From positions 1 through 33,508 of the forward strand of contig JASJBC010000046.1 in assembly GCA_030066715.1 (NCBI GenBank): a stretch of 33,508 nucleotides of DNA, given 5' to 3'. Made by a program: the position numbers and the translations under genes. The notes beneath the pieces were generated by a model. It did not search any database and was not told where the DNA came from. It saw nothing but the letters and a program-made list of their open reading frames with translations. Of the stretch, positions 744 through 33,508 are shown one piece after another. The first letter of the stretch is position 1. The number at the start of each line of letters is the position of its first letter. This stretch comes from Acidimicrobiia bacterium (lineage in GTDB: Bacteria; Actinomycetota; Acidimicrobiia; Spongiisociales; UBA5794).

Positions 744-774
744 CGCCGCGCCGTGCGGGTCGAGGGAGAGCACT

Positions 775-3147: not shown

Positions 3148-3179
3148 AGTCAGACCTCCCCCTGCTGGCAACCGCAGCG

Positions 3180-3185: not shown

Positions 3186-3273
3186 AGCGCGCATCGACCA
3201 GATGGTGAGCGGTTGCCCGGGTCCGTGCCCCATAGTGAGTGGCGGCGGTACCATCGCCCCGGTGGAGGTCAGG

Positions 3274-4997: not shown

Positions 4998-5010
4998 CGT
5001 CGGCTCTCTC

Positions 5011-6009: not shown

Positions 6010-6152
6010 GATTCCCCCACTTGCCTGTCGGCGGGAGGATAACCAGCCGGGCTAGTTGGGGTAGACAGCATGGCGCGCCGTTCGGGTATAGGTGACCCAG
6101 GACGTGTATGGTCGTCGGCGGATGGCCTGGGCCCGGCACGGGGAGAGTGGGA

Positions 6153-6947: not shown

Positions 6948-7058
6948 CCGGCTGCCCTGATATCGGCGGGTGCCCCGGGAGAATTGTCAAATTTCTTACC
7001 AAGGGACTAAGCATTTGGCTAGTCTCGGCCTCCTGAGGGATAACGGGAGGGAATGGGA

Positions 7059-14211: not shown

Positions 14212-15530
14212 CCATTCCACAGTCAGCAGATGTCGTCGTCATCGGCGGCGGGCCGGCGGGATCGCTGGCATCCACCGTTCTGGCGCTCAAAGGCCACGAC
14301 GTCGTGATGCTCGAGAAGCAGCGTCATCCGCGCCCGCAAGTCGGCGAGAGCCTGATTCCCGACTTCTGGAAGTACGCAGATCTGATGGAGGTCACCGACA
14401 AGCTCCTGGCAGAGGGTTTTTTGTCCAAGGCGGGTGCAGTCATCGGCTGGGAAGGCCAGGTGCGCGCCCACTCGTTCGGCGACTTCGGCTACACCAAGCC
14501 CGCGATGCATGTCGAGCGGGAGCGTTTTGACCAAATCCTCTTCGAGCACGCCGCCGAGAAGGGGGTTACAACAGTCGAAGAGGCGACGGTCACCGGAGTC
14601 GACTTCACCGCAGCCGAAGAGAGCGGCGAGGGTGCGGTTGTTGCGGTCAAGGCTGAGGACGGGACACCTCATTCGATCTCCTGCCGCTACGTGCTGGATG
14701 CCAGCGGGCAGGCCGCGGTCCTGGGCCGGCAGCTCGGGCTCCGCCACATTGACGACGCGTTCCGCTATCTGAGCATCTGGGGTTACTGGACGGGTTCCCG
14801 CTTTCTCGATCTCGACGGGACGGCGCACAGCCGCGATGAGCTCGGGAGCACACGGCCCGTCACCTTCGTGACCTCACTCAACGAGGCCGGAGATGCCGGG
14901 TGGTCGTGGCACATCACGCTGCGCGAGGAGACCAGCATCGGTCTGGTTCTCCCCATCGATTTGGTTCGGACCGCCCGCGAGCCGAATGAGTCGTGGGAGT
15001 CGTACTACGAGCGGCGCTGCCGGGAGGTACCCATCCTCCAGGACCTGCTCGCCGACGCCACCCTGCGCCCGGGGAGTGTGTCCTCGATTCGTGACTACTC
15101 GCATCAGTCGAGCGCAGTCGCCGGCCCCGGTTGGTTCCTCGCCGGCGATGCAGCCGGTTTTGTCGATCCGATCTTCTCCGTCGGCGTGGTCTTGGCGATG
15201 TACGGCGCGGCCACGGCGGCCTGGGCAATCGACAGAGCGCTGACCAAACCGGAGCAGGCGGAGCGGGTGCGCGACATGTTCACCAGACAGCTCAACGGCC
15301 GCATCGAAGTTGCCAGGTCGCTGGCACTCCCGCGGTACTCGGGGGCGGGAGGTGAGGTCACCGATCTCGCCAAGAAGACGCTCGAGCTGGAGCGTTCGGC
15401 GGTAAAGGACATCATGTACGCGGTGTCCGAGTTCACCACCCGGTCCGACAACTGGGTCGAGATCGTCGGTACGGAGGCGCCCGACCTCACAGACGAGCAG
15501 CGGCGGATCATTGACGACATAGTCGTGTAG
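14208..15530 (+). CDS. Flavin-dependent halogenase-like FAD enzyme
   Basis: A 440-residue FAD-dependent monooxygenase-fold enzyme. The FAD dinucleotide motif is VVIGGGPAGS (10-19), followed by HPRPQVGESL (40-49). GFLSKAGAVIGW (70-81) holds Lys74 at the place of the catalytic Lys of flavin-dependent halogenases. The halogenase WxWxIP motif is seen as WSWHIT (232-237), with Pro lost. GDAAGFVDPIFSVGV (313-327) is the second FAD motif. These features fit carrier-protein or free-substrate halogenases of the PltA/CmlS/CndH side of the family; an oxidase or reductase without halogenation cannot be excluded. It overlaps the permease gene by ATGA and is followed four bases later by a membrane protein. 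A paralogue lies at 31462 beside an ACP gene. Confidence 0.82.
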   Translation: MTIPQSADVVVIGGGPAGSLASTVLALKGHDVVMLEKQRHPRPQVGESLIPDFWKYADLMEVTDKLLAEGFLSKAGAVIGWEGQVRAHSFGDFGYTKPAMHVERERFDQILFEHAAEKGVTTVEEATVTGVDFTAAEESGEGAVVAVKAEDGTPHSISCRYVLDASGQAAVLGRQLGLRHIDDAFRYLSIWGYWTGSRFLDLDGTAHSRDELGSTRPVTFVTSLNEAGDAGWSWHITLREETSIGLVLPIDLVRTAREPNESWESYYERRCREVPILQDLLADATLRPGSVSSIRDYSHQSSAVAGPGWFLAGDAAGFVDPIFSVGVVLAMYGAATAAWAIDRALTKPEQAERVRDMFTRQLNGRIEVARSLALPRYSGAGGEVTDLAKKTLELERSAVKDIMYAVSEFTTRSDNWVEIVGTEAPDLTDEQRRIIDDIVV

Positions 15531-15533: not shown

Positions 15534-16373
15534 ATGTCGGACGAGACCTTCCGGCTGCTCACCTCGAGTGATGCGCTGGATGCGTACCTGGTTGGTCTCG
15601 GTGGCCTCCTTCTCCTCGGCCTTCTCGCCCTCCTGGGTAGGAGACCGGGTTTTGCCGGTGGTGTGGTGTTGAGTGCCTCCGCGGTGATTGCGCTGGCGTG
15701 GACCTACCGGGTCCCTGCCGAGGTCGTCGCCGGATTGGGAGTTCTCGCCCTGGGCGGCCTCGTGCCTGTGCGATCGCCCTGGTTGGCTATGGCCCTGTCG
15801 GTTCCCGGTGCGACGGTGGTGGGAGCGGCCTTCCTCGACTCGCCCCACCCCGAGCTCGTTGTGTTCGTCGTTGCCGGCACGGTCGTCCTCGGAGGTCTTG
15901 TCGCACGCTTTGATCGTTACGACGGTCCGGTGGCCGGCATGACATTGCTGGTCATCTCCTTTGTCGGGGTGCTTCTCGTCGTGCCGGATACGGACCAGGT
16001 CATCGTCGTTGCTGCTGCGGCCGCCCCCTTGCTCATCGTCGGCTACCCACTGCGACTCGCTCGGATCGGCCCCGGAGGTGCGCAGGCCGCAACGGGTCTG
16101 CTGCTTTGGTCGGTTGCGGTGGGCGGTGTGGCCCGTGCGGCGGCATTGATCTCAGGTGCTGCCGCGCTCGGCCTGCTGATCGCAGACCCGCTCTTCCGCA
16201 GATCGTCAGCGGGCGGCTCTGACCGGTCGCCGCTTCCGCTGGTCGCGATGCAAGCGCTGATCTGCGTCCTCCTGGCCCTCGCCATGAGTCTCTTCCCGGG
16301 CAGGCCCGTCGTTGTCGCCGTTGTGTCGGCCGGCCTGCTGCTTGCTGCGGGGATGTCGGCGCAACGAATCTGA
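15534..16373 (+). CDS. Hydrophobic membrane protein of unknown function
   Basis: A 279-residue protein made almost entirely of hydrophobic segments, about 8-9 possible transmembrane helices rich in Gly, Ala, Val and Leu. I recognise no family motif. It starts three bases after the stop of the halogenase-like gene, with only a weak AGGA site, so translation probably continues from upstream. Its last 168 bases lie antisense to the C-terminus of the polymerase-like gene. The hydrophobic C-terminal helix encoded there (LICVLLALAMSLFPGRPV) argues that this frame is truly coded to its end. It could help the permease or the flavoenzyme product cross the membrane, which is inference only. Confidence 0.72.
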   Translation: MSDETFRLLTSSDALDAYLVGLGGLLLLGLLALLGRRPGFAGGVVLSASAVIALAWTYRVPAEVVAGLGVLALGGLVPVRSPWLAMALSVPGATVVGAAFLDSPHPELVVFVVAGTVVLGGLVARFDRYDGPVAGMTLLVISFVGVLLVVPDTDQVIVVAAAAAPLLIVGYPLRLARIGPGGAQAATGLLLWSVAVGGVARAAALISGAAALGLLIADPLFRRSSAGGSDRSPLPLVAMQALICVLLALAMSLFPGRPVVVAVVSAGLLLAAGMSAQRI

Positions 16374-17669: not shown

Positions 17670-18619
17670 AGCAGCTCCAGGTCGCTGAGAGACAGATCCC
17701 AACTGTCGAGGCTCTCGATTCCGTCACCAAGATTGCGCAGCGGTCGGCACATGAGGGTCATTGTCGCGCCGGGCACGGGGACAAAACCCGAGCGCACGGT
17801 GGCGCGCCGCTCGGGTGATCCCTTGCTGAAGAAGGCGCCGACATAGCTGCTCGTCGCGCTCCGTTGTGCGAGGTGAATCGCCTTCCCGAGATGTTCCCCG
17901 TAGACCTCGGAGATCAGCAGCTCGCGCAGCCTGCCGCGGTGGGCGATGCGACCGACCGCCGTCGCAGTCCCGGCGGCGAACTGCACGTAGCGGGCGGTGG
18001 GGTGGCCGGTGAATCGCCAGGCGTGATACTCCTCCGTGCGCGGAGTGCGCAGGCCACGAAGTGTGCGGTCCGGCGTGGAGCGGGGAGTGACCGGTTCGGG
18101 TTGGGCCACAAAATCGGCCGGCTCCGGAAGCTGGGCCGTGTCGGGTCGCTTCCGCATCAAGCCGCGGGCGGGGAAAGCAAGGGGTCGGATGACTCCCACC
18201 TCCGACCATCCCATCGTCAAGTAGCCGGCGCCGGAGCGCGGGTTGGGCGTGTTGAAAACCATGTCCACACCGTCCGCCGTAGCCGCGTCGAGCGCAGCCA
18301 TCGTCAGGCTGCGGAAGATGCCGCGGCGTCGGTACTCGGGATGGGTGGCGGTATCAACGGCACGGACGCAACGAAGGGTGGTCCCGTCGGGTTGCAGCAA
18401 CTCCCACCTCATGAAGGCACGGAAGCCCGCGATGGTCGGCCCGTCGGCAGCAACGAGCATGATGGATCTGCCGAAGGGATTGTCGACATGCTTCCAGTTG
18501 AACAGCTCCGGTGTGCGCTGCAGCAACGCAGTCTCGCCGAGTGAGGAGCGCAGGAGATCGAGCACCTGCGGGAGATCGTCGGTGGCAAAGGGCCGGATGG
18601 TCAGGGTCTGCTCAGCCAT
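17666..18619 (-). CDS. GNAT-family N-acetyltransferase
   Basis: A 317-residue protein. The N-terminal half is a GNAT domain: ITIRPFATDDLPQVL-like start, VRAVDTATHPEYRRRGIFRSL with the acetyl-CoA pyrophosphate loop RRRGIF (97-102), and FNTPNPRSGAGYLTMGW at about 134-150. The second half (about 190-317) may be another, degenerate GNAT-like fold. It probably acetylates an amino sugar or another amine of the polymer precursor, using acetyl-CoA in the cytoplasm. ATG 18619 has GGAGG upstream and overlaps the end of the glycosyltransferase gene by eight bases. It is coupled downstream to the polymerase gene by GTGA, so the three form one minus-strand operon. Confidence 0.85.
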   Translation of the reverse strand: MAEQTLTIRPFATDDLPQVLDLLRSSLGETALLQRTPELFNWKHVDNPFGRSIMLVAADGPTIAGFRAFMRWELLQPDGTTLRCVRAVDTATHPEYRRRGIFRSLTMAALDAATADGVDMVFNTPNPRSGAGYLTMGWSEVGVIRPLAFPARGLMRKRPDTAQLPEPADFVAQPEPVTPRSTPDRTLRGLRTPRTEEYHAWRFTGHPTARYVQFAAGTATAVGRIAHRGRLRELLISEVYGEHLGKAIHLAQRSATSSYVGAFFSKGSPERRATVRSGFVPVPGATMTLMCRPLRNLGDGIESLDSWDLSLSDLELL

Positions 18620-19706
18620 CGAGCACCTCCGCATAGACCTCCTCGGTCGCCCGCACCATCGCTTCCAGGCTGTAGTCGGCTGCGACGAGCTCGCTTCCGG
18701 CCTGACCGAGCTTCTCTGCGTACTCCGGGTTGTCCAGCAGCCGCTCTATGGCTGCAGCCAGGGCGGCCGGGTCACCCGGGGGGACGAGGAGCCCGGTTTC
18801 GGCGTCACGCACGATGCTCGGCACGCCGCCCACCGCGGTCGCCACCACCGGCCGGCTTAGTGCCAGCGCCTCGAGAATGGAGACCGGCAAACCCTCGACG
18901 TCGGCCGGATTGACGTAGATGTCGGCGGCAGCCATGAACCGGATGGCATCCTCACGTCTGCCGAGGAATCGGATGCGCTCCGCTGCCTGCCGGTCGGCCG
19001 CAAACGACCGGATCTCCTCGAGATCCCCTTCCGTCTTCTCTCCGCCGATGGAGACGATGAGGACATGGTCCCGGTCCAGCAGGGTTGCCGCCGCGACGAG
19101 GTTGCGATGGCCCTTCAGCGGTCTGATGTTTCCAACATGAACAACGAGCCGGTCGTTGTCCCGTAACCCGAGCTCGCTACGCACGCCCGTTGTGTCGATG
19201 TCCGGTGGAATGGCAACGCCGTTCGGGATCACCTGCCGCCTCCGGGCGGGATAAGAGGCGATCGATTCGCCGACGGCGTCGGACACGGCCATCACGGCAG
19301 CGTTGCGCGAGTAGGTGGACCTATTGGCGATCTGCACGGGTCGTCGATAGGAATGCGCCAAGTTGTGCTCTGTGTAGACCACGGGGACCGGGGAGACGAG
19401 TCGAGCCGCGGCGCCCATGGCCGGCAGATGGGCGTGCACGAGCGCAGCATCGGCCTCACGCACGATGCGGCGGAAGCGGGCAACGGAGGCCGGCGTCATC
19501 CCCCGTTTCGACCCGAAGCAGACAACAGGGATCCCGATGTCTTCGAGGGTCGCAACGAGCTGGTTCTTCCACGGCAGCGCATATGCCACGCGGTAGTCGA
19601 ACCGGGTCCGGTCCCAGTAGCGCGCTCCTTCTGCGATCAGCTTTTCGGCGCCGCCGATGCCGAGGCCCTTGATGGCGACGACGACAGTAGGGCGTTCGGA
19701 ACTCAT
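18612..19706 (-). CDS. Glycosyltransferase family 4
   Basis: A 364-residue retaining glycosyltransferase of the GT-B fold. The N-terminal donor-side Gly-rich segment is KGLGIGGAEKL (13-23), typical of GT4 enzymes. NIRPLKGHRNL (193-203) and the E-x7-E motif EGLPVSILE (271-279) with PVVAT are in the nucleotide-sugar domain. It should add one sugar to the lipid-linked repeat unit at the inner face of the membrane. It is the first gene of a three-gene minus-strand operon with the acetyltransferase and polymerase. It is divergent from the deacetylase gene across a 173-bp gap, in which I see no clear promoter boxes. The donor sugar is unknown. Confidence 0.92.
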   Translation of the reverse strand: MSSERPTVVVAIKGLGIGGAEKLIAEGARYWDRTRFDYRVAYALPWKNQLVATLEDIGIPVVCFGSKRGMTPASVARFRRIVREADAALVHAHLPAMGAAARLVSPVPVVYTEHNLAHSYRRPVQIANRSTYSRNAAVMAVSDAVGESIASYPARRRQVIPNGVAIPPDIDTTGVRSELGLRDNDRLVVHVGNIRPLKGHRNLVAAATLLDRDHVLIVSIGGEKTEGDLEEIRSFAADRQAAERIRFLGRREDAIRFMAAADIYVNPADVEGLPVSILEALALSRPVVATAVGGVPSIVRDAETGLLVPPGDPAALAAAIERLLDNPEYAEKLGQAGSELVAADYSLEAMVRATEEVYAEVLDG

Positions 19707-19879: not shown

Positions 19880-20674
19880 GTGAAGAGGGCAATCAGAACG
19901 GCTGCCAAGAGCGGCTTCCTGGCCGCGGATCTGCTCTCGGGGCGGATGCCGGGACCGCGCCTGCTCATCTATCACCAGGTTGGCGCCGGGATGGGCCGGC
20001 AGATGGAGGTGACCGAGGAGGACTTTCGGCGTCACCTCGATTGGTTGGTGGCCCACGGCGAGGTCGTCAGCCTCGATCGGGCGATCGCCGAACGGGGGAC
20101 ACCGGGCGATGACCGCCGCTATGTGCTCACGTTTGATGACGGTTATGCGGATATGTACGACAACGCGTGGCCGCTGCTGCGGGCGCAGCGGCTCCCGTTC
20201 ACGCTGTACCTGACAACCGAGCCGGTCGAAACAGGTGTGGCCTTGACCCCCGGTGGGCAGGCCGAGCCGCTGACCTGGGCGCAGATCGACGAGATGCTCG
20301 CCTCCGGTCTCATGACGCTCGGTGCCCACACCCACCGGCATCGCGAGTTGGGCGACCTGGACCTGGCCGCCATCGAGGAGGAGATCAGCGTCTCCAACGA
20401 TCTGATCGAGGAGCGCACCGGTGTGACTCCGATCCACTTCGCCTACCCGTGGGGTTACTGGTCGCCTGTGGCCGACACGGTGCTGCGCCGGGTGTACGAG
20501 ACGGCGACGCTGGGAAGCGGAGCCCCCATCAGCGCAGACACCGACCTCTTCAAACTCAATCGTGTTCCGGTCCAACTCAGCGATGGGTTTGTCTTCTTTC
20601 GGCGGAAGATGAACACGGGGCTGATGATCGAGGACAAGCTGCGCCGCCGGCTGGCGAAATACGACGGGCCATGA
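19880..20674 (+). CDS. Polysaccharide deacetylase (NodB domain)
   Basis: A 264-residue carbohydrate esterase family 4 protein. The metal/catalytic Asp-Asp motif is TFDDGY (84-89) and the metal-binding His motif is GAHTHRHREL (148-157); PIHFAYPWGYWS (about 186-197) is the third NodB block. There is no signal peptide, so it may act on a lipid-linked precursor in the cytoplasm or at the membrane face. It removes N- or O-acetyl groups from a sugar; the resulting free amine could then be re-acylated or sulfated by neighbours. GTG 19880 has GAGG seven bases upstream. The stop overlaps the next glycosyltransferase start by ATGA. Confidence 0.9.
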   Translation: MKRAIRTAAKSGFLAADLLSGRMPGPRLLIYHQVGAGMGRQMEVTEEDFRRHLDWLVAHGEVVSLDRAIAERGTPGDDRRYVLTFDDGYADMYDNAWPLLRAQRLPFTLYLTTEPVETGVALTPGGQAEPLTWAQIDEMLASGLMTLGAHTHRHRELGDLDLAAIEEEISVSNDLIEERTGVTPIHFAYPWGYWSPVADTVLRRVYETATLGSGAPISADTDLFKLNRVPVQLSDGFVFFRRKMNTGLMIEDKLRRRLAKYDGP

Positions 20675-21834
20675 GCGAGGGACGAACCTTCGTATTCGTC
20701 ATCAACTCGCTGGGAGCGGGCGGGGCGGAGCGATCGTTGGCGGACATACTCCCGCACCTGCCCGAGCGGGGAGTCCACCCCCTGGTGGTCTGCTTCAAGG
20801 CGCCGGAGGTTGGCTTCGAGCGGGAAGTCCGGGACGCGGGCACGGAAGTGGTCGTGTTGCCATCCGGCGGCCTGCTGCGGCACATCCGGCCACTCCGCCG
20901 CATCATCAGGAGACGGCGGCCGGCACTGGTGTACACCGCTCTGTTCGATGCACATTTCGTGGGAAGGCTTGCTGCGGTGGGCACCGGTGTCCCGGTGCTG
21001 TCCAATCTCACCAACGTCGCCTATGACCCGGCCCGATTTGCCGATCCTCGTGTGAACACGCGCAAGCTGCGGATGCTGCGCACCATCGATGGATGGACGG
21101 CGCGACACCTGACGGCGCACTTCCATGCCGTCAGCGGAGCTGTGAAGGATTCGGCGGTCACGCATCTCGGCATCGCCGGCGACGACGTGACCGTTGTATA
21201 CCGCGGACGCGGGAGGGAGCGGCTTGGCGCCCCCGGCCCGGAGCGGCGCCGCGCGGTTCGGGAGAAGCTGGGGATTCCTCAGCAGGCTCCCGTGGTCGTG
21301 ACGGTCGGACGCCAGGAGTATCAGAAAGGCCATCGTCATCTGCTGGCCGCGGTCCCCGCTTTGCGGGAGCAGTTCCCGGATCTCGTCGTTCTCATCGTCG
21401 GGCGCGAGGGCCACTGCACTGGGGACCTTTGTGCCATCGTCGCAGAGCTGCAGATCGAAGAACACGTGCGGTTCCTTGGCCACCGCACCGATGTCGCCGA
21501 TCTGCTCAGTGCAGCCGACGTCTTTGCCTTCCCATCGGTCTACGAGGGTTTGGGCGGCGCCAACCTCGAGGCGATGGCCATGGGTCTGCCGATGGTCGTC
21601 TCGGACATTCCTGCGCTGCGCGAAGTCGTTGCCGAAGGGGAGAACGGACTGCTGGTTCCGCCCGGCGATCCTGATGCACTCGGTGGGGCCATCGCCGGGT
21701 TGCTTGCGGACCCGGAGCTGCGAACGCGTTACGGGACACGCAGCATCGAGATCTACGAGGAGAGCTTTCAGGCGACAGAGTCGATTCCGCGCACTGTCGA
21801 TCTGATGGTGCGGGTGGCCGACGCCGGCCGCTAG
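20671..21834 (+). CDS. Glycosyltransferase family 4
   Basis: A 387-residue GT-B glycosyltransferase. The N-terminal segment VINSLGAGGAERSL (10-23) is the GT4 donor/acceptor loop. GRQEYQKGHRHLL (213-225) and the E-x7-E motif YEGLGGANLEAMAMGLP (291-307) lie in the C-terminal domain. ATG 20671 overlaps the deacetylase stop (ATGA). The frame is open for 168 more codons upstream, but that part is the deacetylase gene in another frame. Coupling to the deacetylase suggests the pair act on the same sugar. It converges on the Wzz-like gene with both stops sharing one CTAG. Confidence 0.92.
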   Translation: MSEGRTFVFVINSLGAGGAERSLADILPHLPERGVHPLVVCFKAPEVGFEREVRDAGTEVVVLPSGGLLRHIRPLRRIIRRRRPALVYTALFDAHFVGRLAAVGTGVPVLSNLTNVAYDPARFADPRVNTRKLRMLRTIDGWTARHLTAHFHAVSGAVKDSAVTHLGIAGDDVTVVYRGRGRERLGAPGPERRRAVREKLGIPQQAPVVVTVGRQEYQKGHRHLLAAVPALREQFPDLVVLIVGREGHCTGDLCAIVAELQIEEHVRFLGHRTDVADLLSAADVFAFPSVYEGLGGANLEAMAMGLPMVVSDIPALREVVAEGENGLLVPPGDPDALGGAIAGLLADPELRTRYGTRSIEIYEESFQATESIPRTVDLMVRVADAGR

Positions 21835-23957: not shown

Positions 23958-25922
23958 CTACCCGGCCTCGGTCACGGTCTCGCTCGTCATCGGGGCGAAG
24001 GTGATGGTTTCGTCCTCGCTCCACTGCCGGTTCGATACAGAGAGAAGGAACTCACGCAATTCCGCGGCCGTGCCGGAATCCACCATTCCCTGAAGGCTCT
24101 CGACCATGTCGAGGAGCGTCACAATACCCGGGTGGCCGGGGCGTGCAACGTGAATCTTCTTCTGCTCGCTCGGCTCGAGCGGGTTCACCGAGAGGATCTC
24201 GGCCTTCTTCTCGCCGGGGCGGGCGCCGGTGATCCTCACCTCGATGTCCCGGCCCGGGACCAGCCCGGCGAGACGGATCATCCGCCGAGCCAGATCGCCG
24301 ATTCGCACCGGCTCGCCCATGTCGAGCACGAACACCTCTCCGCCCTTGGACAGGGCAGACACCTGCAGCACGAGTTGCACGGCTTCGCTGATCGTCATGA
24401 AGTAGCGCAGCATGTCCGGGTCGGTCACCGTCACCGGGCCGCCTGCCTGGATCTGCTTCATGAACGTCGGAACGACGCTGCCGCGGGAGCCCAGGACGTT
24501 GCCAAAACGAACCGCGGTGTGGGTGCATCCGTCGCCCCACCGCTGCGATGCGGATTGCGTGAGCATCTCGGCGACCCGCTTCGACGCCCCCATCACGCTG
24601 GTCGGCTCGACGGCCTTGTCGGTCGAGATGAGGACGAACTGCTCGACCTCGTGCTCCCGGCACGCCTGGAGCAGGTTGTCCGTCCCGAAGATGTTGGTCT
24701 TCACCGCCTCTTCCGGGCAGGTTTCGAGGATGGGAACATGCTTGTGCGCGGCGGCGTGGAAGACGACTTGTGGCTTGTGGTCGCGGAACACACGATCCAG
24801 CCGCTCCGTGTCGCGGATGTCGCAGAGAATCGGCCGCAGGTCCGCCGTGTAGTCGTTCCAGGTGAACTGCCCGTCGTGAAGGTGGGTTTCGTCGTTGTCG
24901 ACGGCAACCACCATCTCGGGGGCGAAGCGCAGCACCTGGCGGGTGATCTCAGCCCCGATCGATCCGCCCGCTCCCGTGATGAGGATCCGCTTGCCGGAGA
25001 GGAGCTCCGAGATAGGGGTGAGGTCGGTGTCGACGGCAGGCCGCGGCAAGAGGTCCGACACGGCGAGGTCGCGAACGTCCTGGAGCCTGCCATCAGTGCC
25101 GAGAACGTCCTCCAACTGGGGCACGATACGGAGGCGGACATCCACCTCGACGAAGAGGTCGACCAGATCCCGCAGTGTGGAAGGGTCGAGCTGGGCTGCG
25201 ATTAGGACCTGTTCGATCTCATGATCGGCGACGATCTGATCGATCTCGTCGAGCGAGCCGAGGACGGGCAGATCGGCAATGCGCTTCCTTGTGTAACCCG
25301 GGTCGGTGGCGACGAAGCCGATGACGCGAAGCGGCTGGTGGCCGCGGCTGCCGCTGCGGGCGAGGCCGGCTGCGGTCCTGCCGGAACCCACGATGACGGT
25401 GGGCGCCGAGTCGACCATTCCTTGCACCCGACGGAACGAGAACATGCGGGCCCGGAACCGGGCGGCACCCATGCCGCCGAGCGCCAGGATGCTGCCGAGG
25501 ACGACAACCCCGATGGGAAGGAGCCGGAGGTTTGATCCGGTGACACGTTGCAGGAAGACGATGCCCACTACCAGCGTCGTGGCTGCCCCGGCGGAGGCGA
25601 AGAGGAGACGCATCGCCTCTTCGAAGGATGCGTGCTCCCACTCATGCCCGTATACCCCGGCGATGAAGTTGGCAACGAGATGGACGAGCACGATCAGGGG
25701 GAGCAAGAAGACGAAGCCGAGCCGGTAGTCGGACACCGCGGCCGGTGCGTCCATAGCCCTGATGCCCAATGCGGCCGCATAGGTGACGAGAACTGTCACG
25801 GCGTCCATCGCCGCAAAGGTCAGGTCAGAGCGAAGCTGCGCCGATGCGCGCGCAAAGCGTGTGCTGAGCCGTGGCTTCCGATCAGAATTGTCCGTCCCTA
25901 CCTTGCTGGCGATCCCCCGCAC
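23958..25922 (-). CDS. WbpM/CapD-type UDP-sugar 4,6-dehydratase (membrane form)
   Basis: A 654-residue protein of the long FlaA1/WbpM/CapD class. The N-terminal part (about 35-165) holds four transmembrane segments, followed by a CoA-binding-like Rossmann domain (TVIVGSGRTAAGL, 175-187) and the dehydratase domain. NAD(P)-binding is by LITGAGGSIGAEI (314-326), and the active site is STDKAVEPTSVMGASKR (433-449), with the Met and Lys of the SMK-type triad. It turns UDP-GlcNAc into a 4-keto-6-deoxy sugar, the usual first step toward diacetylated or amino deoxy sugars. The GNAT enzymes nearby would fit acetylating such a product. GTG 25922 is the likely start, with AGGGG upstream. Confidence 0.93.
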   Translation of the reverse strand: MRGIASKVGTDNSDRKPRLSTRFARASAQLRSDLTFAAMDAVTVLVTYAAALGIRAMDAPAAVSDYRLGFVFLLPLIVLVHLVANFIAGVYGHEWEHASFEEAMRLLFASAGAATTLVVGIVFLQRVTGSNLRLLPIGVVVLGSILALGGMGAARFRARMFSFRRVQGMVDSAPTVIVGSGRTAAGLARSGSRGHQPLRVIGFVATDPGYTRKRIADLPVLGSLDEIDQIVADHEIEQVLIAAQLDPSTLRDLVDLFVEVDVRLRIVPQLEDVLGTDGRLQDVRDLAVSDLLPRPAVDTDLTPISELLSGKRILITGAGGSIGAEITRQVLRFAPEMVVAVDNDETHLHDGQFTWNDYTADLRPILCDIRDTERLDRVFRDHKPQVVFHAAAHKHVPILETCPEEAVKTNIFGTDNLLQACREHEVEQFVLISTDKAVEPTSVMGASKRVAEMLTQSASQRWGDGCTHTAVRFGNVLGSRGSVVPTFMKQIQAGGPVTVTDPDMLRYFMTISEAVQLVLQVSALSKGGEVFVLDMGEPVRIGDLARRMIRLAGLVPGRDIEVRITGARPGEKKAEILSVNPLEPSEQKKIHVARPGHPGIVTLLDMVESLQGMVDSGTAAELREFLLSVSNRQWSEDETITFAPMTSETVTEAG

Positions 25923-26070: not shown

Positions 26071-27021
26071 TCAGGGGCGGACAAAGCCGAGCCGCCACAC
26101 GACGCCGAAGCTCACGACGCCGACCGCGGCCAGCAATCCCACGGATCCGAGCCAGTCCGGGTCGGTCGCGGCGAACCCGACCAGAACGGCGACGAGCAGT
26201 CCCTGCACTGCCGCGGCGGCGAGATCGATCTGCGGAATTGACCAACCTCTGTCCCGCAATTGGTCATAGATGTGGCTGCGGTCGCCGGCGAACAGCGCCT
26301 TGCCGGAGAGACGCCTGCGCAAGATGGTGACGGCGAGGTCGATGGCAAAGACCCCGAGTACCCCCGCTGCGATCAGCAGCATGGGGCCGATGCCGGCCGG
26401 TGTGGCGGTGAGAGCTCCGTAGGCGAGCGTGAGACCGATGAGGTAGGCACCGTTGTCGCCGAGGAAGATGCGTGCTTTGGGGCGGTTGAGAACGAGAAAG
26501 CCGGCGATCGCTCCCGCCAGGACGGCACCGAGACTCGCAGCAACCAAGCCCTGCCCACTCGCCCAGGCCAGTCCGGCTGCGGAGGCGAGCGTCACTGAGC
26601 CAACCAGACCATCGAGCCCATCGAGCAGATTGACTGCGTTGATGGCAACCACCACCAGCACCAACCCGAAGAGGCTCGCACCCACCGACCCCAAGTCCAT
26701 CAGTGTGACCAGGACCGCCGCTGCGGCTACCTCGGCCACCAGCCGCAGGCGGGGAGAGAGGTCATACCTGTCGTCGGCGAGACCGAGGAGCAGGACGAGC
26801 GACGACCCGGCGAAGAGGGCGCCGGAGAAGGCATCCTCGACCAGAAGTCCTGAGTGAATCCCTGCGTACACACCGACACCACCGAGCAGCGGTGTTGGCT
26901 GCTTGTGGATCTTCAGCTCGGTGCCGCCCGGCATGTCGACCAGCCCGATGCGGGGACCCACCCACAACGCGGCGTATGACCATGCAAGCGCAACAAAGAA
27001 GGCAACGACTAGGCCGGCCAC
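26071..27021 (-). CDS. WecA/MraY-type undecaprenyl-phosphate sugar-1-phosphate transferase
   Basis: A 316-residue membrane enzyme with about 10 transmembrane segments. The family motifs are present in order: KIHKQPTPLLGG (37-48), LADDRYDLSP (81-90, catalytic DD), NAVNLLDGLDGL (128-139), FLGDNGAYLIG (186-196) and GDRSHIYDQL (246-255). It should transfer a HexNAc-1-phosphate from a UDP-sugar to undecaprenyl (or decaprenyl) phosphate, starting the repeat unit. This is the only priming enzyme visible here, since the dehydratase is not a transferase. GTG 27021 overlaps the upstream gene by 13 bases, with only a weak GGTGAT site, so translation is probably coupled. A housekeeping WecA role for wall polymers is an alternative. 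Confidence 0.9.
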   Translation of the reverse strand: MAGLVVAFFVALAWSYAALWVGPRIGLVDMPGGTELKIHKQPTPLLGGVGVYAGIHSGLLVEDAFSGALFAGSSLVLLLGLADDRYDLSPRLRLVAEVAAAAVLVTLMDLGSVGASLFGLVLVVVAINAVNLLDGLDGLVGSVTLASAAGLAWASGQGLVAASLGAVLAGAIAGFLVLNRPKARIFLGDNGAYLIGLTLAYGALTATPAGIGPMLLIAAGVLGVFAIDLAVTILRRRLSGKALFAGDRSHIYDQLRDRGWSIPQIDLAAAAVQGLLVAVLVGFAATDPDWLGSVGLLAAVGVVSFGVVWRLGFVRP

Positions 27022-28754
27022 AGCATCACCGTCGATTCCTCTCCCGCGTGCACCTCGATGGTTCCCGCGGTGGCGAAGCCCATCTTGCGATAGGCGGCGA
27101 TCGCCTGGCCGTTGCTGGAGCCCACTACCACGCGAACGGCCTCGGCCCCCCTCTCCCCGAGTTGTGTCAGGAACCGGGCGCCTAGCTCAGTGCCGAGGCC
27201 GCGGCCCCGCATCTCCGGCTCCAGGGCGGTAGCCAGCAGCTCGGCGGCGGCGTCGTCGGCACCCTCGTAGCGCAGGCTCTCCCAAGCCCGCTTGCTGACG
27301 CTGGGGCGAACCGCCCGAGGCAGCGCCGCCATGCCAGCGGCGATGCCGTGGTGTCTCAGGAAGTGCTTGTAGAAGGCTCCGGTGTCGAGGACGCCCGCAA
27401 CAAAGCCAACCGGCCCGCTGCCGTCGTCGAGAACGAGAACCAGCCCGTCGGAGAAATCGATGAGCGCCCGATACAGACGGGTCATGAATCTCGGGCCCAG
27501 GCTGGGCAGAAACCCGGTGGAGATCCCTTCGGAATGCAGCCGGGCCAGGGTAGGAGCATCAGCCGCGACGGCCGTTCTCACTGCGACATCGCCACCGGCG
27601 GCGCCCGGCATGCTCACACCCTTCTGCTGCGCAAGACGACGGTACGTGGCGAGCACTCTGCCCACAACCGAGCTTTCGTCGAAGTGAGTCAGGGCCCGTC
27701 GCCGGCCGGCCTCGCCCATCCGCCTGCGGAGTTCGCCGTCGTTGCCGAGCCGCTCGATCGCGGCGACCAACTCGGTGGCGGCTCCGACCCCGACCAGGAT
27801 CCCGTTCTCGTCGGGCGCGACTACGTCGCGACAGCCGCGGATATCCGTGGCTATCACCGGCAGTCCCATGGCCGCGGCCTCCATCGCGCTGCGGGGAAAG
27901 CCCTCGCGATGGGACGGGAGCACAAACACGTCCATGGCGGCGTAGAGGCGATCGACGTCGGTGCGCATGCCCAGGAACCGGACCCCCTGCTCCTCGGCCT
28001 TGGCGACGAGGTCGCGGGGGAGAGCATCAGATTTGTCTTCGTCGTCCGGGCCAATGCAGACGGCAACGTAGCGATCGTCGAGCCTGCCGACGGCCTCGAG
28101 GAACTCCGGGTAGCCCTTCTCGGCGACGAGGCGTCCCACCATGCCAACGACGACCTCATCAGGCCCGGCGCCGATCTCCTTACGGGCTCGGGTGCGCTCC
28201 TCGTTGCTGAATCGGTCGGGATCGAACCGAGCCAGATCGACGCCGTTGCCGAGATGATGCACCCGGCCGGCCGGGGCGAGGTGGAGACGTTCGATCGTCG
28301 CCACGTCCTCGGCGCTCTGCACCAATTCCGCATGGGAGAACCGAGACGCAACAGCCTCGAGCGCGTAGACGACGAGCCTCTTCAGGAACCGATCCTCCGG
28401 CGTCGCATAGAGGCCATGAACGGTGTTGACCACGATCGGCACGCCGGCAAGGCGCCCGAGCACTCGCCCGTAGAGACCGGGCTTGGGGTTGTGCGTGTGC
28501 AGGATGTCCGGCCGTTCCCGGCGCACGACTCGCCAGAGCTGTCCCGCGGCCCTGAGATCGGCGAGCACATTCATCCCGCGAGTGGACGCGGGGAGGGGGA
28601 TGTGACGAATTCCGTCCTCCTCGAGGCCCGGTACCCACGGTCCCGGAGCGCTGACGCCGATTGTGTCGATCCCGAGATCGCGGGTGGCGGCAAGCTGGGG
28701 AAACACGAGATACCGGAGGCTCAGATCCACGGTGGTGAGATGGGCGACCTTCAC
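27009..28754 (-). CDS. Fusion of GT4 glycosyltransferase and GNAT acetyltransferase
   Basis: A 581-residue two-domain protein. Residues 1 to about 375 are a GT4 enzyme: MVGRLVAEKGYPEFLEA (205-221) and the E-x7-E motif in SHREGFPRSAMEAAAMGLP (281-299). After a short linker, residues about 388-581 are a GNAT domain with EPEMRGRGLGTELG (512-525) for acetyl-CoA and SNGQAIAAYRKMGF (547-560). The likely role is to transfer an amino sugar and acetylate it, or acetylate its donor, in one enzyme. I find no stop or frameshift between the parts, so this is a true single frame. GTG 28754 overlaps the upstream stop as GTGA and follows GGAGG. Confidence 0.9.
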   Translation of the reverse strand: MKVAHLTTVDLSLRYLVFPQLAATRDLGIDTIGVSAPGPWVPGLEEDGIRHIPLPASTRGMNVLADLRAAGQLWRVVRRERPDILHTHNPKPGLYGRVLGRLAGVPIVVNTVHGLYATPEDRFLKRLVVYALEAVASRFSHAELVQSAEDVATIERLHLAPAGRVHHLGNGVDLARFDPDRFSNEERTRARKEIGAGPDEVVVGMVGRLVAEKGYPEFLEAVGRLDDRYVAVCIGPDDEDKSDALPRDLVAKAEEQGVRFLGMRTDVDRLYAAMDVFVLPSHREGFPRSAMEAAAMGLPVIATDIRGCRDVVAPDENGILVGVGAATELVAAIERLGNDGELRRRMGEAGRRRALTHFDESSVVGRVLATYRRLAQQKGVSMPGAAGGDVAVRTAVAADAPTLARLHSEGISTGFLPSLGPRFMTRLYRALIDFSDGLVLVLDDGSGPVGFVAGVLDTGAFYKHFLRHHGIAAGMAALPRAVRPSVSKRAWESLRYEGADDAAAELLATALEPEMRGRGLGTELGARFLTQLGERGAEAVRVVVGSSNGQAIAAYRKMGFATAGTIEVHAGEESTVMLWPA

Positions 28755-29830
28755 TTCGCCTCCTGCAACGCCGACGACAGGAAATCGTCAAAGCGGTCGA
28801 TTGCCTGTTCGAGCGTGTAGTGGGTGCGAACGTAGTCGCGCTGCGCCTTCCCCATCTCCTCCAATCTCGTCCGATCTGCCGTCAGCTCGCGGGCGGCAGC
28901 GACCATCCCGGCGACATCTCCGGGGCGGAACAGCATGCCGGTTTCACCGTCGATCATCGTCTCTCCCGTCCCTCCAACCGCAAAAGCCAGCGCCGGGACG
29001 CCTGCCGCACCCGACTCCAGGACCGCCCCGGGAAGACCCTCGCTGTGTGACGTCAGTAGCAGCAGATCGGCCCAGTCGAGATGGGGGGTGACGTCGCCGA
29101 CCGAACCTGTCAGCTCCAGCCCGACGTCACCGGGCATGGTTGCCGACCGGGCCGCGAGCTCCTCGGCGAGCGGGCCGGCGCCGACGAGACGCAATCGTGC
29201 GTTGCCCCCGATGCCCGCGGCGACGTCGACTGCGGCGTGAGGGTTCTTCTCGTTCGAGAGGCTTCCGAGGAAGAGAAGCCGCAGCTCCCCCGAACGTGGC
29301 CTCTTTTCCATGAAGAACTCGGGGGGGACACCCGTGGGAGCGACCTTGATCCGAGCGGGCTTGACGCCGAGGTCGCTGATGAGCTGCTCTCGGGTTTCTC
29401 TTGACACTGCCAGGACCAGGTCGGCTCGCTGTTGAAAGAACCGCTGCAGAAGCCGGTGCCGGGGAGACCGCAGCCAGTAGCGAGGTTCACCGATACTGCC
29501 GTAGGCGAGGAGGGGACGGCGACGAAGTAGGCTGCGGGCAATGACCGCATAGCGGAGTGTCGCCCCTCCGTTGGCGAGAACGATGGCCGGATTGCTTTCT
29601 GCCATCCTGCGGCGGAGGGCTGCAACGGTGCGGCGGTTGATACGCCCCCCGGCTTCGGGCGGAGAGAGCGGCTCGGCAGCGACGACCCGGTCGGAGCCCG
29701 ACGCTTGGATTGCCGCAAAGTCGACATCCCAGCCACGCCGGCGCAGGCCGTCTCCCAGCCTTTCCCCAAAGACCTCGGCTCCCCGCCTGCGGTCGCTGGC
29801 GACGAGCAGCAGCAGCGTCTTCTCTCTCAC
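28751..29830 (-). CDS. Glycosyltransferase family 4
   Basis: A 359-residue GT-B glycosyltransferase. The N-terminal strand TLLLLVASDRRRGAEVF starts the acceptor domain. LFLGSLSNEKNPHAAVDVA and the E-x7-E motif SEGLPGAVLESGAAGVPAL are in the donor domain. I chose GTG 29830 because AGAGGGG precedes it and the fold begins there; the frame continues 25 codons upstream through an Arg/Cys-rich stretch unlikely to be coded. It leads a minus-strand run (this gene, the GT4-GNAT fusion, the priming transferase) whose overlaps imply one mRNA. The sugar added is unknown. Confidence 0.9.
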   Translation of the reverse strand: MREKTLLLLVASDRRRGAEVFGERLGDGLRRRGWDVDFAAIQASGSDRVVAAEPLSPPEAGGRINRRTVAALRRRMAESNPAIVLANGGATLRYAVIARSLLRRRPLLAYGSIGEPRYWLRSPRHRLLQRFFQQRADLVLAVSRETREQLISDLGVKPARIKVAPTGVPPEFFMEKRPRSGELRLLFLGSLSNEKNPHAAVDVAAGIGGNARLRLVGAGPLAEELAARSATMPGDVGLELTGSVGDVTPHLDWADLLLLTSHSEGLPGAVLESGAAGVPALAFAVGGTGETMIDGETGMLFRPGDVAGMVAAARELTADRTRLEEMGKAQRDYVRTHYTLEQAIDRFDDFLSSALQEAK

Positions 29831-29963
29831 ACATCCCCTCTGATCGCGGGCGCAACGGTACCGGAGTCGGCGGCACCGTGCCGCTCTCCTCAGGGCTCGG
29901 CCCACATTGGGTCACCCGCGGCGCCTGTGTCGGGCCACGGCAATCATTGACATGAATGCTGTG

Positions 29964-29998: not shown

Positions 29999-31342
29999 AT
30001 GCGAAAGAGCCGAGCAGCAACCGTTGTCATAGTGTTCCAGCTCGTTCTTGCGCTGGGCCTGCCCGCCCAGGCGCAGGAATCCCCGCGGAGTTCGGCGGAC
30101 TGCTCGCTGTCGTCGACCGGGTCGGTTCCGATCCCCGACCTGGGTGGCGACACCTACCAGGGGGAGGCAGGCGGCCTCTATCCCGATGGCAGCAACGACC
30201 TCCCCGCCGACCACGCCAGCCTCGGGTTGTGGCATGCCGCCCAGATCGAGCCGCTGGACGGTGCCGGTGATCCTGATCCCAGCGGCAGCATCGTCCTGCT
30301 TTCGATCGGCGTCTCCAACACCCGCAGCGAGTACGGCATGTTCGCCCGCAGGGCGCGGGATGTTGTCGACAGCGACGTGATGCTCATCAACGGCGCACAG
30401 CCCGGCGAGGACATCAGCCAGTGGCAAAGCGCCGACAGCCGCGCCTGGCAGGCCATCGACGGGGCGCTGGGGCAGAACGGTGTCACCGCCGAGCAGGTGC
30501 AGGCGGTATGGATCAAGCTCCCCGACATTGTCAATGGACCTGCGGAAATCCTCCCGTTCCCGACCAACTCTCTGACCTATCGAGATCAGCTCGCAGTGGT
30601 GGTGCAGCACGCCCGGGATGCCTACCCCAATCTGCGTCTCGCCTATCTGTCGAGCCGGATCTATGCGGGATACAACACGAGCGGTCGCCCCAGCCCGGAA
30701 CCGCTGGCCTACGAGAACGGCTTTGGTGTGAAGTGGCTGATTGCCGACCAGATTGCGGGTGACGCGAGCCTCAATGCCGATCCGCGCCGTGGCGAGGTCG
30801 AGGCGCCATGGTTGGCGTGGGGCCCCTACCTGTGGGCCGACGGCACTAACCCGCGCAGCGACGGTCTGATCTGGGAGTGCGGCGACCTCCAGGACGATGG
30901 GATCCACCCCTCGCAAAGTGGTGCCGTCAAGGTTGCGGACATGCTTGTCGCACACTTCACCACGCATCCCACCGCGGCGCCTTGGTTTGCCTCCGACGGC
31001 ACGCCGATCGGTGAGGTGGTGCTGCCTCCCCCGGCCGACGTCCCGGTGACCACGATGCCGCCGGAGACCACGACCACGACTACTACGCAGCCGCCCGTGT
31101 CCACCACCACCACGACGGTCGCTGCGGGTGCGGAGACTGCCCGTCCGGGACCGCCGGACCGGACCCAGCGAGAGGAAGAGCGTCTCGCCCGGCAGGAGGA
31201 CAACTCCTCGGCAAATTCCAACGAAGGTGTGCTGATAGCCACGGCCATCGGTCTGCTCGTGCTTCTTGGTGCGGGCGCCATGGTCAGTCGCTACCGGCGT
31301 GAGCAAGAAGAGCAAGACGAGGCAATCGAGGCAGGTGGATAG
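29999..31342 (+). CDS. Secreted SGNH-hydrolase-like protein with Thr linker and C-terminal membrane anchor
   Basis: A 447-residue surface protein. A signal peptide ends near LPAQAQE (21-27). The N-terminal motif GLYPDGSNDLPADHA (59-73) is followed by a strand ending LLSIGVSNT, with Ser106 as possible nucleophile, and by DDGIHPSQSG (299-308), a DxxH-type SGNH block with Asp300 and His303. A Thr-rich linker spans about 350-375, and one transmembrane helix (411-430) with RYRR behind it anchors the protein; no LPXTG is present. It probably acts on acyl groups of surface glycans, as esterase or acyltransferase. ATG 29999 follows GGAGAGAGGG. The same motifs recur in the partial gene at 33130. Confidence 0.8.
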   Translation: MRKSRAATVVIVFQLVLALGLPAQAQESPRSSADCSLSSTGSVPIPDLGGDTYQGEAGGLYPDGSNDLPADHASLGLWHAAQIEPLDGAGDPDPSGSIVLLSIGVSNTRSEYGMFARRARDVVDSDVMLINGAQPGEDISQWQSADSRAWQAIDGALGQNGVTAEQVQAVWIKLPDIVNGPAEILPFPTNSLTYRDQLAVVVQHARDAYPNLRLAYLSSRIYAGYNTSGRPSPEPLAYENGFGVKWLIADQIAGDASLNADPRRGEVEAPWLAWGPYLWADGTNPRSDGLIWECGDLQDDGIHPSQSGAVKVADMLVAHFTTHPTAAPWFASDGTPIGEVVLPPPADVPVTTMPPETTTTTTTQPPVSTTTTTVAAGAETARPGPPDRTQREEERLARQEDNSSANSNEGVLIATAIGLLVLLGAGAMVSRYRREQEEQDEAIEAGG

Positions 31343-31461: not shown

Positions 31462-32733
31462 GTGGCAGATGTGATCATCATTGGAGGGGGACCGGCCGGG
31501 TCGGTTCTCGGCAGCTACCTCTCCATGGCTGGGGTCAGCAACATCATTCTCGAGAAGGCGGTACATCCCCGTCCGCATGTTGGAGAGTCGCTCGTTTCTT
31601 CAACGGTCCGGATCTTCGACGAGATCGGATTTCTCCCGACCATGGAGGAAGCCGGCTTCACCCGCAAGTACGGTGCGGCCTGGCGTCCCACCAAGAAGGA
31701 AGGGGAGTTCTCGATTCGCTTCGCAGAGTTCCCACAAGAGGGTGTCAACCAGGACTACACCTACCACGTGGAGCGGAGCAAGTTCGATCATCTCCTTCTG
31801 TTGCACGCCCGTGATCTCGGGTCGAAGGTCGTGCAGGGCGTCGAGGTTCGGGAAGTGCTCTTCGACGACAACAACGCCGCAACGGGAGTTCGTGTTTCGA
31901 TCGACGGGGCTTCGACCGAACTCTCCTCCAAGTTCGTCATTGACTGCAGTGGGCGCAACACGATTCTCGGCAACCAGCTGGGGCTGCGCCAGAAGGATCC
32001 GGTCTTCAACCAGTTCGCTGTCGCCGCATGGTTCGAGAACGTGCACCGCAGTGACAACCCGGAGACCGAGGAGTACATCCACATCTACTTCCTTCCCACC
32101 GAGCGGGGCTGGGCCTGGCAGATCCCGCTGACGGACGAGATCACGTCGATCGGTGTCGTTGCCGAGCGCGAAGTGTTCAAGCAATCGCGGCAGCGCAAGG
32201 AGGAGTACTTCTGGGACATGGTCGCCACGAGCCCGGCTCTGGCCACCGCGATGGAGAACGCCAAGCAGGTCGAGGATTTCAACACCGAGGCCGACTACAG
32301 CTACGTGATGGAGAAGTTCGTCGGCAACAGCTGGATGCTGGTCGGCGATTCGGCCCGGTTCGTCGACCCGATCTTCTCGTCAGGGATTTCGATAGCAGCC
32401 GAGGCAGCCAAGTACGCCTCGAAGTCGATCGTCGAAGCGCTGCAGACCGGGGACCGCAGCGAAGCGGCACTCCAGCCTTATGAAGACAAGATCAAGGCGG
32501 GTGTTGCCATCTGGTACGAGTTCATCTTGCTGTATTACAAGCTGATGCACCTGTTCACCTACTTCATCGATCACAAGGAGCACCGTCTCCAGATCCTGCA
32601 ACTCCTCCAGGGTGAGGTGTACGAGCGCGAAAATGCACCGGTCCTCGATGCCATGCGCGAGATGATCAAGACCGTGGAGGAGACTCCGGGCCACCTCTGG
32701 GCCGGACACCTCACCGACATTCCCATCGACTGA
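31462..32733 (+). CDS. Flavin-dependent halogenase-like FAD enzyme paired with an ACP
   Basis: A 423-residue FAD enzyme. VIIIGGGPAGS (4-14) binds FAD, followed by HPRPHVGESL (35-44). GFTRKYGAAW (65-74) has Lys69 at the catalytic position of flavin halogenases, and WAWQIP (217-222) is a full WxWxIP motif. DSARFVDPIFSSGI is the second FAD motif, as in halogenases of the PltA/CndH type that act on carrier-bound substrates. GTG 31462 follows GGGGGAAG; the frame is open 32 codons further, but the FAD motif would then be too far in. The acyl carrier protein gene starts 11 bases downstream, which favours a carrier-bound substrate. Desaturase or oxygenase activity without halogenation remains possible. 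Confidence 0.85.
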   Translation: MADVIIIGGGPAGSVLGSYLSMAGVSNIILEKAVHPRPHVGESLVSSTVRIFDEIGFLPTMEEAGFTRKYGAAWRPTKKEGEFSIRFAEFPQEGVNQDYTYHVERSKFDHLLLLHARDLGSKVVQGVEVREVLFDDNNAATGVRVSIDGASTELSSKFVIDCSGRNTILGNQLGLRQKDPVFNQFAVAAWFENVHRSDNPETEEYIHIYFLPTERGWAWQIPLTDEITSIGVVAEREVFKQSRQRKEEYFWDMVATSPALATAMENAKQVEDFNTEADYSYVMEKFVGNSWMLVGDSARFVDPIFSSGISIAAEAAKYASKSIVEALQTGDRSEAALQPYEDKIKAGVAIWYEFILLYYKLMHLFTYFIDHKEHRLQILQLLQGEVYERENAPVLDAMREMIKTVEETPGHLWAGHLTDIPID

Positions 32734-32744
32734 AGGAGCCAGAC

Positions 32745-32990
32745 ATGGCGGTTGAAGTACGCCCCATCATCACCGAGTACATCAAGAGCGAGTTCGTCAA
32801 AGGCGACACCGGCGTCGATGTCGATTCAGCGAACCTGCTGGAGGAGGAGATCATCGACTCGCTCGGGATCTTCACCCTCGTCAGCTTCATCGAGGACAAG
32901 TTCGGCGTGTCGGTCGAGCCGGAGGAAGTGAATCTCGACAACTTCGAGACCGTGTCCGCCGTCACCACGCTCGTCGAAGGCAAGCTGTAA
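32745..32990 (+). CDS. Acyl carrier protein
   Basis: An 81-residue acidic protein of normal ACP/PCP size. The phosphopantetheine attachment site is DSLG, with Ser39, in IIDSLGIFTLVSFIEDKFG; the following EDKFGVSVEPEEV helix and the rest of the four-helix pattern agree. It would carry a thioester-bound acyl group in the cytoplasm. ATG 32745 is preceded by GGAG, and the gene sits between a halogenase-like flavoenzyme and a secreted SGNH-like protein. No ketosynthase or adenylation enzyme is in the window, so its loading enzyme lies elsewhere. A DltC/AlgI-like system passing acyl groups to the cell surface is one possibility. Confidence 0.92.
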   Translation: MAVEVRPIITEYIKSEFVKGDTGVDVDSANLLEEEIIDSLGIFTLVSFIEDKFGVSVEPEEVNLDNFETVSAVTTLVEGKL

Positions 32991-33033
32991 CGCTGTCCGT
33001 CTCGCGCTTGCGAGAGGATTGCGCCGGACGTTG

Positions 33034-33062
33034 GACCGCCTGTCCTGCTGGGACGGGCGGTC
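33034..33062 (+). terminator. Hairpin terminator after the ACP gene
   Basis: GACCGCCTGTCC and GGACGGGCGGTC form a 12-bp stem with one G-U pair and a 5-base loop, 44 bases after the ACP stop, followed by TGTCATTT. This probably ends the halogenase-ACP transcript. Confidence 0.8.
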
Positions 33063-33129
33063 TGTCATTTGTGGTCTATTGAGGAGACGGCCCACTTAAC
33101 AACCACACATCACTACGCTCGCTATCGCT

Positions 33130-33508
33130 ATGGAAGCGGCCACACATCGCACCCTCCGGCGAAGGGTCGTCTGGCTGACCGGGTTGGCTCTGGCGGCGAC
33201 TCTTGCGTCTGCGATCCCGCCTCAGGTCGAGCCGGCGGTCGCCTTCGGGGGCAACTGCTCGAACTCATCGGTCGGATACACGCCACTATCGGATAGCGGC
33301 GACCTCTATGCGGCCGGCAACACGATGCCGTCGAGTCATGCGGCGGCGGCGCCCGACATCACCCCGCAGGGCGGCGTCATCGGCGTTGTCTCCCTGGGCA
33401 TGTCCAATGCTGCTCAGGAATGGCAGGCATTCATGGGGATGGCCGAGTCATCTCCGGCTGTGGCGAGCTCTCTCCGGTTTGGCAACGGCTCGATCGGCGG
33501 ACAGACGA
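33130..33508 (+). CDS. Secreted SGNH-hydrolase-like protein, 3' end cut by window edge
   Basis: 126 residues are visible and the frame stays open to the window end. A signal peptide is likely (RRRVVWLTGLALAATLASA, 10-28). After it, DLYAAGNTMPSSHA (58-71) matches the GLYPDGSNDLPADHA motif of the protein at 29999, and GVVSLGMSNAAQEW (85-98) matches its LLSIGVSNT block, with Ser92 as possible nucleophile. It is therefore a paralogue of that surface protein. An in-frame TAA at 33097 limits the start, and ATG 33130 is the first Met; no clear ribosome binding site precedes it, so the mRNA may be leaderless. The catalytic His block and any anchor would lie beyond the window. Confidence 0.75.
   Translation, partial: MEAATHRTLRRRVVWLTGLALAATLASAIPPQVEPAVAFGGNCSNSSVGYTPLSDSGDLYAAGNTMPSSHAAAAPDITPQGGVIGVVSLGMSNAAQEWQAFMGMAESSPAVASSLRFGNGSIGGQT

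Follow-up and report, generated by a model that had tools for sequence, protein, structure and literature searches.

The window analysed here is 33,508 nucleotides long and equals a complete contig (G000:C177); the draft genome it comes from (3.14 Mb, 239 contigs, 76% complete) has its relatives among the Acidimicrobiia. It contains a flavoenzyme gene followed by a gene for a stand-alone acyl/peptidyl carrier protein (ACP), and both lie between genes for secreted SGNH-like proteins (SGNH1 and SGNH2). Glycosyltransferase, deacetylase, WecA-like, PseB-like and sulfotransferase genes were identified upstream of the flavoenzyme and ACP, and by its gene content the region is a surface-polysaccharide locus, in agreement with the setting given in a preliminary description of this DNA. 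The features are as follows.

502-1368 (+), sulfotransferase
1355-2209 (-), hyd2, alpha/beta hydrolase with Arg in the nucleophile place (GVRMG), TIGR03101-like but below the cut-off
2206-3288 (-), hyd1, alpha/beta hydrolase with a Cys nucleophile (GTCYG), candidate acyl transferase, TIGR03100-like but below the cut-off
3202-4038 (+), third secreted protein with a G-x-S-N motif; homologue beside an ACP in G329:C198
4035-4997 (-), conserved recurring protein (63% in G049:C20; 37% in G049:C129, G021:C70, G090:C13 and G124:C35)
5011-6009 (-), biotin/lipoyl-like domain protein (PF00364, 24 bits), paired with the 4035-4997 gene
6108-6947 (+), sulfotransferase
7053-11960 (+), secreted protein of 1635 aa with SdrD B-like, FG-GAP and UnbV/ASPIC repeats
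12034-12918 (+), sulfotransferase
14208-15530 (+), second flavoenzyme with a Trp_halogenase fold
18612-19706, GT4 glycosyltransferase
19880-20674, polysaccharide deacetylase
20671-21834, GT4 glycosyltransferase
23958-25922, PseB-like dehydratase
26071-27021, WecA-like enzyme
27009-28754 (-), GT4 glycosyltransferase fused to a GNAT acetyltransferase
28751-29905, GT4 glycosyltransferase
29999-31342 (+), SGNH1, secreted, membrane-anchored SGNH-like protein with GVSN and DGIHP motifs, conserved in G021, G022, G049 and G179
31462-32733 (+), PltA-type flavin-dependent halogenase, short-loop variant, 423 aa, GTG start
32745-32990 (+), stand-alone ACP, 81 aa, Ppant Ser in IIDSLGI
33130-33508 (+), SGNH2, SGNH-like and secreted, truncated where the contig ends

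The flavoenzyme was assigned to the PltA-type halogenases from PDB matches, tree position, motifs and Foldseek. Its motifs are intact, comprising the FAD-binding IIGGGPAGS (GxGxxG), the conserved Lys in TRKYGA, WAWQIP (WxWxIP) and FVDPIFSSG (FxxPxFSxG), and the Pfam Trp_halogenase model scored 111.6 bits against a cut-off of 21. Comparison with all PDB chains returned PltA (1.1e-125), ChlB4 (1.9e-119) and Mpy16 (1.9e-116) at 423-393 bits, after which the scores dropped to 198. Identity to PltA was 48.8% over 418 aligned residues, and the C-terminal helical region of PltA is retained. A Foldseek search with a modest AF2 model (pLDDT 62) also placed PltA first, with ChlB4 and Mpy16 completing the top three. 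Orthologues of the flavoenzyme were identified in other genera at 77% and 62% identity. PltA, Mpy16 and Bmp2 are 'variant B' halogenases, the substrate of which must sit on a carrier protein (PMC8407142). The window enzyme is like PltA, Mpy16 and ChlB4 in sequence, fold, Lys and both halogenase motifs, C-terminal helical region and a stand-alone carrier nearby. It differs from them in its polysaccharide locus, in its tree position and in the loss, seen by alignment, of about 15-20 residues that follow GAAWTS in PltA. This segment is missing from a clade made up of four genomes of the Acidimicrobiia family f1 (the window's, G021, G022 and G049) and a Colwellia member. In the tree, PltA, ChlB4, Mpy16, Brasilonema and G234 sequences formed a clade (support 96/100), and the sequences from the window, from Acidimicrobiia f1 and from Colwellia fell outside it. 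Given the missing segment and the position outside this clade, we describe the flavoenzyme as a PltA relative and short-loop variant and not as a proven member.

The ACP scored 23.5 bits with Pfam PP-binding (cut-off 20.8), and its PDB matches include PigG, PltL and 6cxt_A, the carrier in the Bmp1-Bmp3 complex. The preliminary description had reported halogenase WxWxIP and Lys motifs in a flavoenzyme 11 bp from a stand-alone ACP, and both were seen; the gap spans 32734-32744, with AAGGAG ahead of the ACP ATG. The closest ACP relatives in the class were found in G049:C332 (61-64%), G124:C35 (58%), G090:C13 (57%), G033:C189 (51%) and G021:C70 (44%). Since both the flavoenzyme and the ACP have orthologues in other genera, their reading frames are not chance. 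In G124, G090 and G033 the orthologue of the window ACP (50-58%) has PltE-like and PltF-like genes as its immediate neighbours. The G021:C70 ACP lies about 3.5 kb from a PltE-like gene and adjoins homologues of the window pair at 4035-6009. This pair recurs in several related loci, and the G021:C70 homologue of the 4035-4997 protein matched GDSL at 5.8e-4, below the cut-off. A homologue (54%) of the large secreted protein at 7053-11960 adjoins PltE in the same contig, G021:C70.

PltE- and PltF-like genes were sought in 395 genomes of the class, with the dehydrogenase and ligase of a Brasilonema plasmid as probes. The halogenase was identified in five of these genomes (the window's, G021, G022, G049 and G234), and all five carry a PltE-like gene (1e-75 or better) compared with 22 of 395 overall (naive P = 3e-7). 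The PltE-like proteins matched the prolyl-ACP dehydrogenase 4IRN first (1e-111 to 1e-124), above ordinary acyl-CoA dehydrogenases; their best NCBIfam models were PigA and RedW, yet the scores fell below the equivalog cut-offs. Four of the five halogenase genomes (G021, G022, G049 and G234) also encode a PltF-like A-domain whose code is close to that for proline. Aligned to PltF, these four, which lie in polysaccharide-type cassettes, read DLFYLALVCK and differ from PltF (DLLYLALVCK) at a single position. Such proline-type A-domains occur in about 13 of the 395 genomes overall and in 9 of the 10 other genomes with a close ACP. A second A-domain group, with the code DLLN(A/L)GVG(V/C)K, belongs to NRPS-type cassettes and includes contig C17 of the window genome. 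No proline-type A-domain was detected in the window's own, 76% complete assembly; its sole PltF-like gene lies on C17 and has the code DLLNAGVGVK, and its own PltE-like copy is part of the same NRPS-type cassette. The C17 genes were ruled out as the missing partners by this code and by the likely continuation of the cassette into NRPS genes on C182. The two contigs are probably contiguous, as PltE-PltF-ACP-NRPS run on without interruption in G049:C338 and G021:C191. C17 (L046) and C182 (L025) encode a Cys alpha/beta hydrolase, PltE-like and PltF-like proteins, an ACP, large NRPS genes and an Sfp-type PPTase, probably as one cluster split by contig ends, and this cassette is conserved in several Acidimicrobiia.

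We also examined the SGNH-like proteins that flank the flavoenzyme and ACP. SGNH1 begins like a signal peptide and is anchored in the membrane at its C-terminus; the SGNH2 gene is incomplete and nothing downstream of it can be read, because the window is the whole contig. The preliminary description had called the two proteins paralogous, and this is weak in a direct comparison (26%, E about 0.5) and clear through the fuller G049 SGNH2, which matches SGNH1 at 3.9e-23. They are called SGNH-like from their motifs, namely G-V/M-S-N near the N-terminus and DGIHP near the C-terminus. Pfam GDSL gave sub-threshold matches in the SGNH homologues, a four-sequence profile of SGNH1 returned no PDB relative, and a single-sequence AF2 model of SGNH1 (pLDDT 31) was too poor to show the fold. 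In the G179 protein, Asn occupies the expected block V His position. Relatives of SGNH1 were found in 5 of 335 genomes, namely all four short-loop halogenase genomes and G179. The gene lies beside the halogenase, upstream on the same strand in the window and in G022 and divergent in G021:C98. In G179, PltE-ACP-PltF is followed directly by SGNH1 and then by Wzz and sulfotransferases. The order in G049:C332 is ACP, SGNH2 and SGNH1, followed by homologues of the window membrane protein at 15534-16373 and of one gene from G022; behind SGNH2 is an ORF with an S-layer homology domain. The G049:C332 and G179 orders indicate that the ACP and SGNH proteins stay together even when the halogenase is elsewhere. 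Naive hypergeometric values for co-occurrence ranged from 1e-14 to 1e-6 and are only indicative, as they overstate independence with few halogenase genomes, four of the five in one family. Within that family (50 genomes) the values were 4e-6 for halogenase-SGNH1 and 1.5e-4 for halogenase-PltE. The SGNH1 co-occurrence and the G049 gene order support the earlier view that the SGNH-like proteins are part of the same unit as the ACP and halogenase.

An MBOAT acyltransferase had been expected as a further partner; PF03062 was instead absent from 6 of 9 genomes (the window's own, which is incomplete, G021, G022, G033, G090 and G179). A different candidate is hyd1. The hyd1 and hyd2 matches to TIGR03100 and TIGR03101 reached 64.7 and 71.5 bits (cut-offs 168 and 203). 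The hyd1 Cys (GxCxG) is kept in 8 readable sequences, and the gene order in G234 is hyd2-hyd1-PltE-ACP-PltF. The acyl-transfer enzymes CmaE and SyrC use a Cys. Side enzymes of NRPS pathways, such as CouN7 and CmaE, pass acyl groups on from one carrier to a second one or to a sugar (PMC8748450), and pyrrole-2-carboxyl is moved from carrier to sugar in clorobiocin and coumermycin (PMC11218499, PMC8748450). Clorobiocin (CloN1, CloN2, CloN7) and coumermycin (CouN7) thus offer a precedent for delivery to a sugar hydroxyl, although the acceptor there is an antibiotic deoxysugar and here would be a surface glycan, and the likeness drawn is one of function. From the absence of MBOAT in the six genomes, the Cys nucleophile, the G234 order and the side-enzyme precedent, we put forward hyd1 as the transferase and a glycan or glycan precursor as the acceptor. 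A pair of the hyd1/hyd2 type (Cys and Arg) is conserved across ACP-bearing polysaccharide and NRPS loci.

Families, motifs, the A-domain code, gene neighbourhoods and co-occurrence suggest a pathway in which each chemical step, the halide and the acceptor are proposals. A PltF-like A-domain would load L-proline onto the ACP, and a PltE-like flavoprotein would oxidise the prolyl group to pyrrole-2-carboxyl. PltA and Mpy16 halogenate a carrier-bound pyrrole. As a PltA-type, FADH2-dependent halogenase, the window enzyme would act on an acyl thioester on a small carrier, with the ACP as that carrier or a close sister, and would add chlorine or bromine to the carrier-bound pyrrole. A cytoplasmic transferase, best represented by hyd1, may then attach the (halo)pyrrolyl group through an ester or amide bond to the surface glycan or a precursor of it; for the SGNH proteins we propose a role outside the cell. 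Kinship with PltA, ChlB4 and Mpy16 makes it likely that the flavoenzyme performs carrier-bound ring halogenation. The earlier suggestion of a halogenated carrier-bound acyl group gains support from this kinship and can be sharpened, in that the group is probably pyrrole-2-carboxyl derived from L-proline. Because the set lies in surface-polysaccharide loci and is coupled to SGNH-like surface proteins, a glycan or its precursor is the most likely end point, and we assign this destination tentatively. The scheme as a whole, a proline-derived (halo)pyrrolyl-ACP pathway in surface-polysaccharide loci that ends on a glycan, has in our judgement about an even chance of being correct. That an antibiotic-type module for pyrrole halogenation was taken over for glycan decoration, so that the surface polysaccharide of these Acidimicrobiia bears halogenated pyrrole-2-carboxyl groups which secreted SGNH-like proteins set or trim on the cell surface, is a speculative extension that may well be wrong.

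The preliminary description had named no described system with this set; however, systems of the PltA/PltE/PltF/PltL kind are already known. With a proline A-domain, a prolyl-carrier dehydrogenase and an ACP, the sets of the window genome's relatives resemble the PltE-PltF-PltL cassettes (CloN3-N4-N5, PigA-PigI-PigG, Bmp, anatoxin), but they occur with glycosyltransferases, sulfotransferases and secreted SGNH-like proteins, and no intact set was found in the window's own assembly. The exosortase A-associated exopolysaccharide set (TIGR03098, TIGR03100, TIGR03101) likewise combines, within polysaccharide loci, an ACP with a neighbouring AMP ligase and a pair of alpha/beta hydrolases; in contrast, all matches here were below the family cut-offs, the ligase is proline-coded and there is a prolyl dehydrogenase in addition. 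Dlt D-alanylation shares an A-domain, a carrier and an extracellular SGNH-type protein acting on a surface polymer, and differs from the present set in its MBOAT protein, absent from the six genomes listed above, and in the proline code found here. The enzyme chemistry is therefore of a known kind, and what is new is the setting and the partners. The literature searched turned up no halogenated pyrrole on a bacterial surface polymer, and nothing direct on pyrrole- or halogen-bearing polysaccharides or on the exosortase ligase-ACP set. If true, the proposal would add a type of decoration new for glycans and give an antibiotic pathway another role. The recurrent ligase-ACP-hydrolase set of polysaccharide loci also receives a use that can be tested, and enzymology gains halogenases whose substrate loop is trimmed.

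Alternatively, the same halogenase and ACP could serve to make a diffusible natural product, either a halogenated pyrrole or another halogenated aryl compound, with the polysaccharide neighbourhood incidental. The characterised PltA, Mpy16 and Bmp2 pathways lead to small molecules (PMC8407142), a 46.6% halogenase homologue on the Brasilonema plasmid lies in a PltE-PltF-ACP-halogenase row beside NRPS and PKS genes, and the window genome has its own NRPS cassette with PltE- and PltF-like genes on C17 and C182. However, in seven genomes (G124, G090, G033, G179, G234, G021 and G049) the stretches read around the proline-type cassettes contain neither NRPS nor PKS genes, and glycosyltransferases, sulfotransferases, deacetylase or Wzz lie about 10 kb away or closer; G136, with an NRPS next door to its proline-type cassette, is the exception. 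Together with the co-occurrence of SGNH1 and SGNH2 with the ACP or halogenase, this makes a diffusible product a possible but rather unlikely outcome.

The short-loop clade may instead halogenate or hydroxylate a different acyl group on the carrier, such as an aryl acid supplied via a CoA-ligase-like enzyme. The loop deletion, the separate tree position and the lack of a proline A-domain in the window assembly are consistent with this. The Colwellia halogenase, moreover, is accompanied by an ACP and an AMP ligase of non-proline code, with the best dehydrogenase there at 36%, and this different pairing suggests that short-loop enzymes may also accept groups other than pyrrole. On the other hand, a proline-type A-domain is present in 3 of the 4 short-loop Acidimicrobiia genomes (G021, G022 and G049) and a PltE-like gene in all four, and we consider a different acyl group unlikely, somewhat more so than a diffusible product. 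The Colwellia MAG locus (L017, 6857-12993) comprises a PEP-CTERM gene, a phosphodiesterase-TPR protein, the short-loop PltA-like halogenase, the AMP ligase and a convergent stand-alone ACP.

A third reading, in which the ACP carries an unhalogenated prolyl or pyrrolyl group for the glycan while the halogenase acts on something else, would make their adjacency a matter of chance. Among the Acidimicrobiia homologues, direct adjacency was found only in the window; the two genes lie apart in G049 and G021, and members of the ACP group are also present where the halogenase is missing, for instance in G033, G090 and G124. Against this, the two genes of the window are 11 bp apart with a ribosome-binding site before the ACP, both associate with SGNH1, and a close ACP is present in 4 of the 5 halogenase genomes (none in G022 at the threshold used), which renders chance adjacency improbable. 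The pairing given in the preliminary description thus fails as a conserved adjacency, which taken literally is one of the refutations that description had set, and stands as an association, as the halogenase and the carrier and pathway genes travel together across genomes although their adjacency is not kept.

Finally, a geranylgeranyl reductase or LodB/QhpG-like monooxygenase, although from the same FAD superfamily, is a very improbable identity for the flavoenzyme, as TIGR02032 (136.6 bits, cut-off 158.8) and QhpG (136.2 bits, cut-off 240) both scored below their cut-offs and the halogenase motifs are intact, and by sequence (422.9 bits to PltA compared with 66.6 bits to the reductase-like 3oz2) and fold it groups beside PltA and is clearly not a geranylgeranyl reductase. 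The second flavoenzyme of the window (14208-15530) is about 30% identical to the first, has the motif WSWHIT without the Pro and lies beside a TauE/SafE permease; 56% homologues of it were identified in the G021 and G049 genomes.
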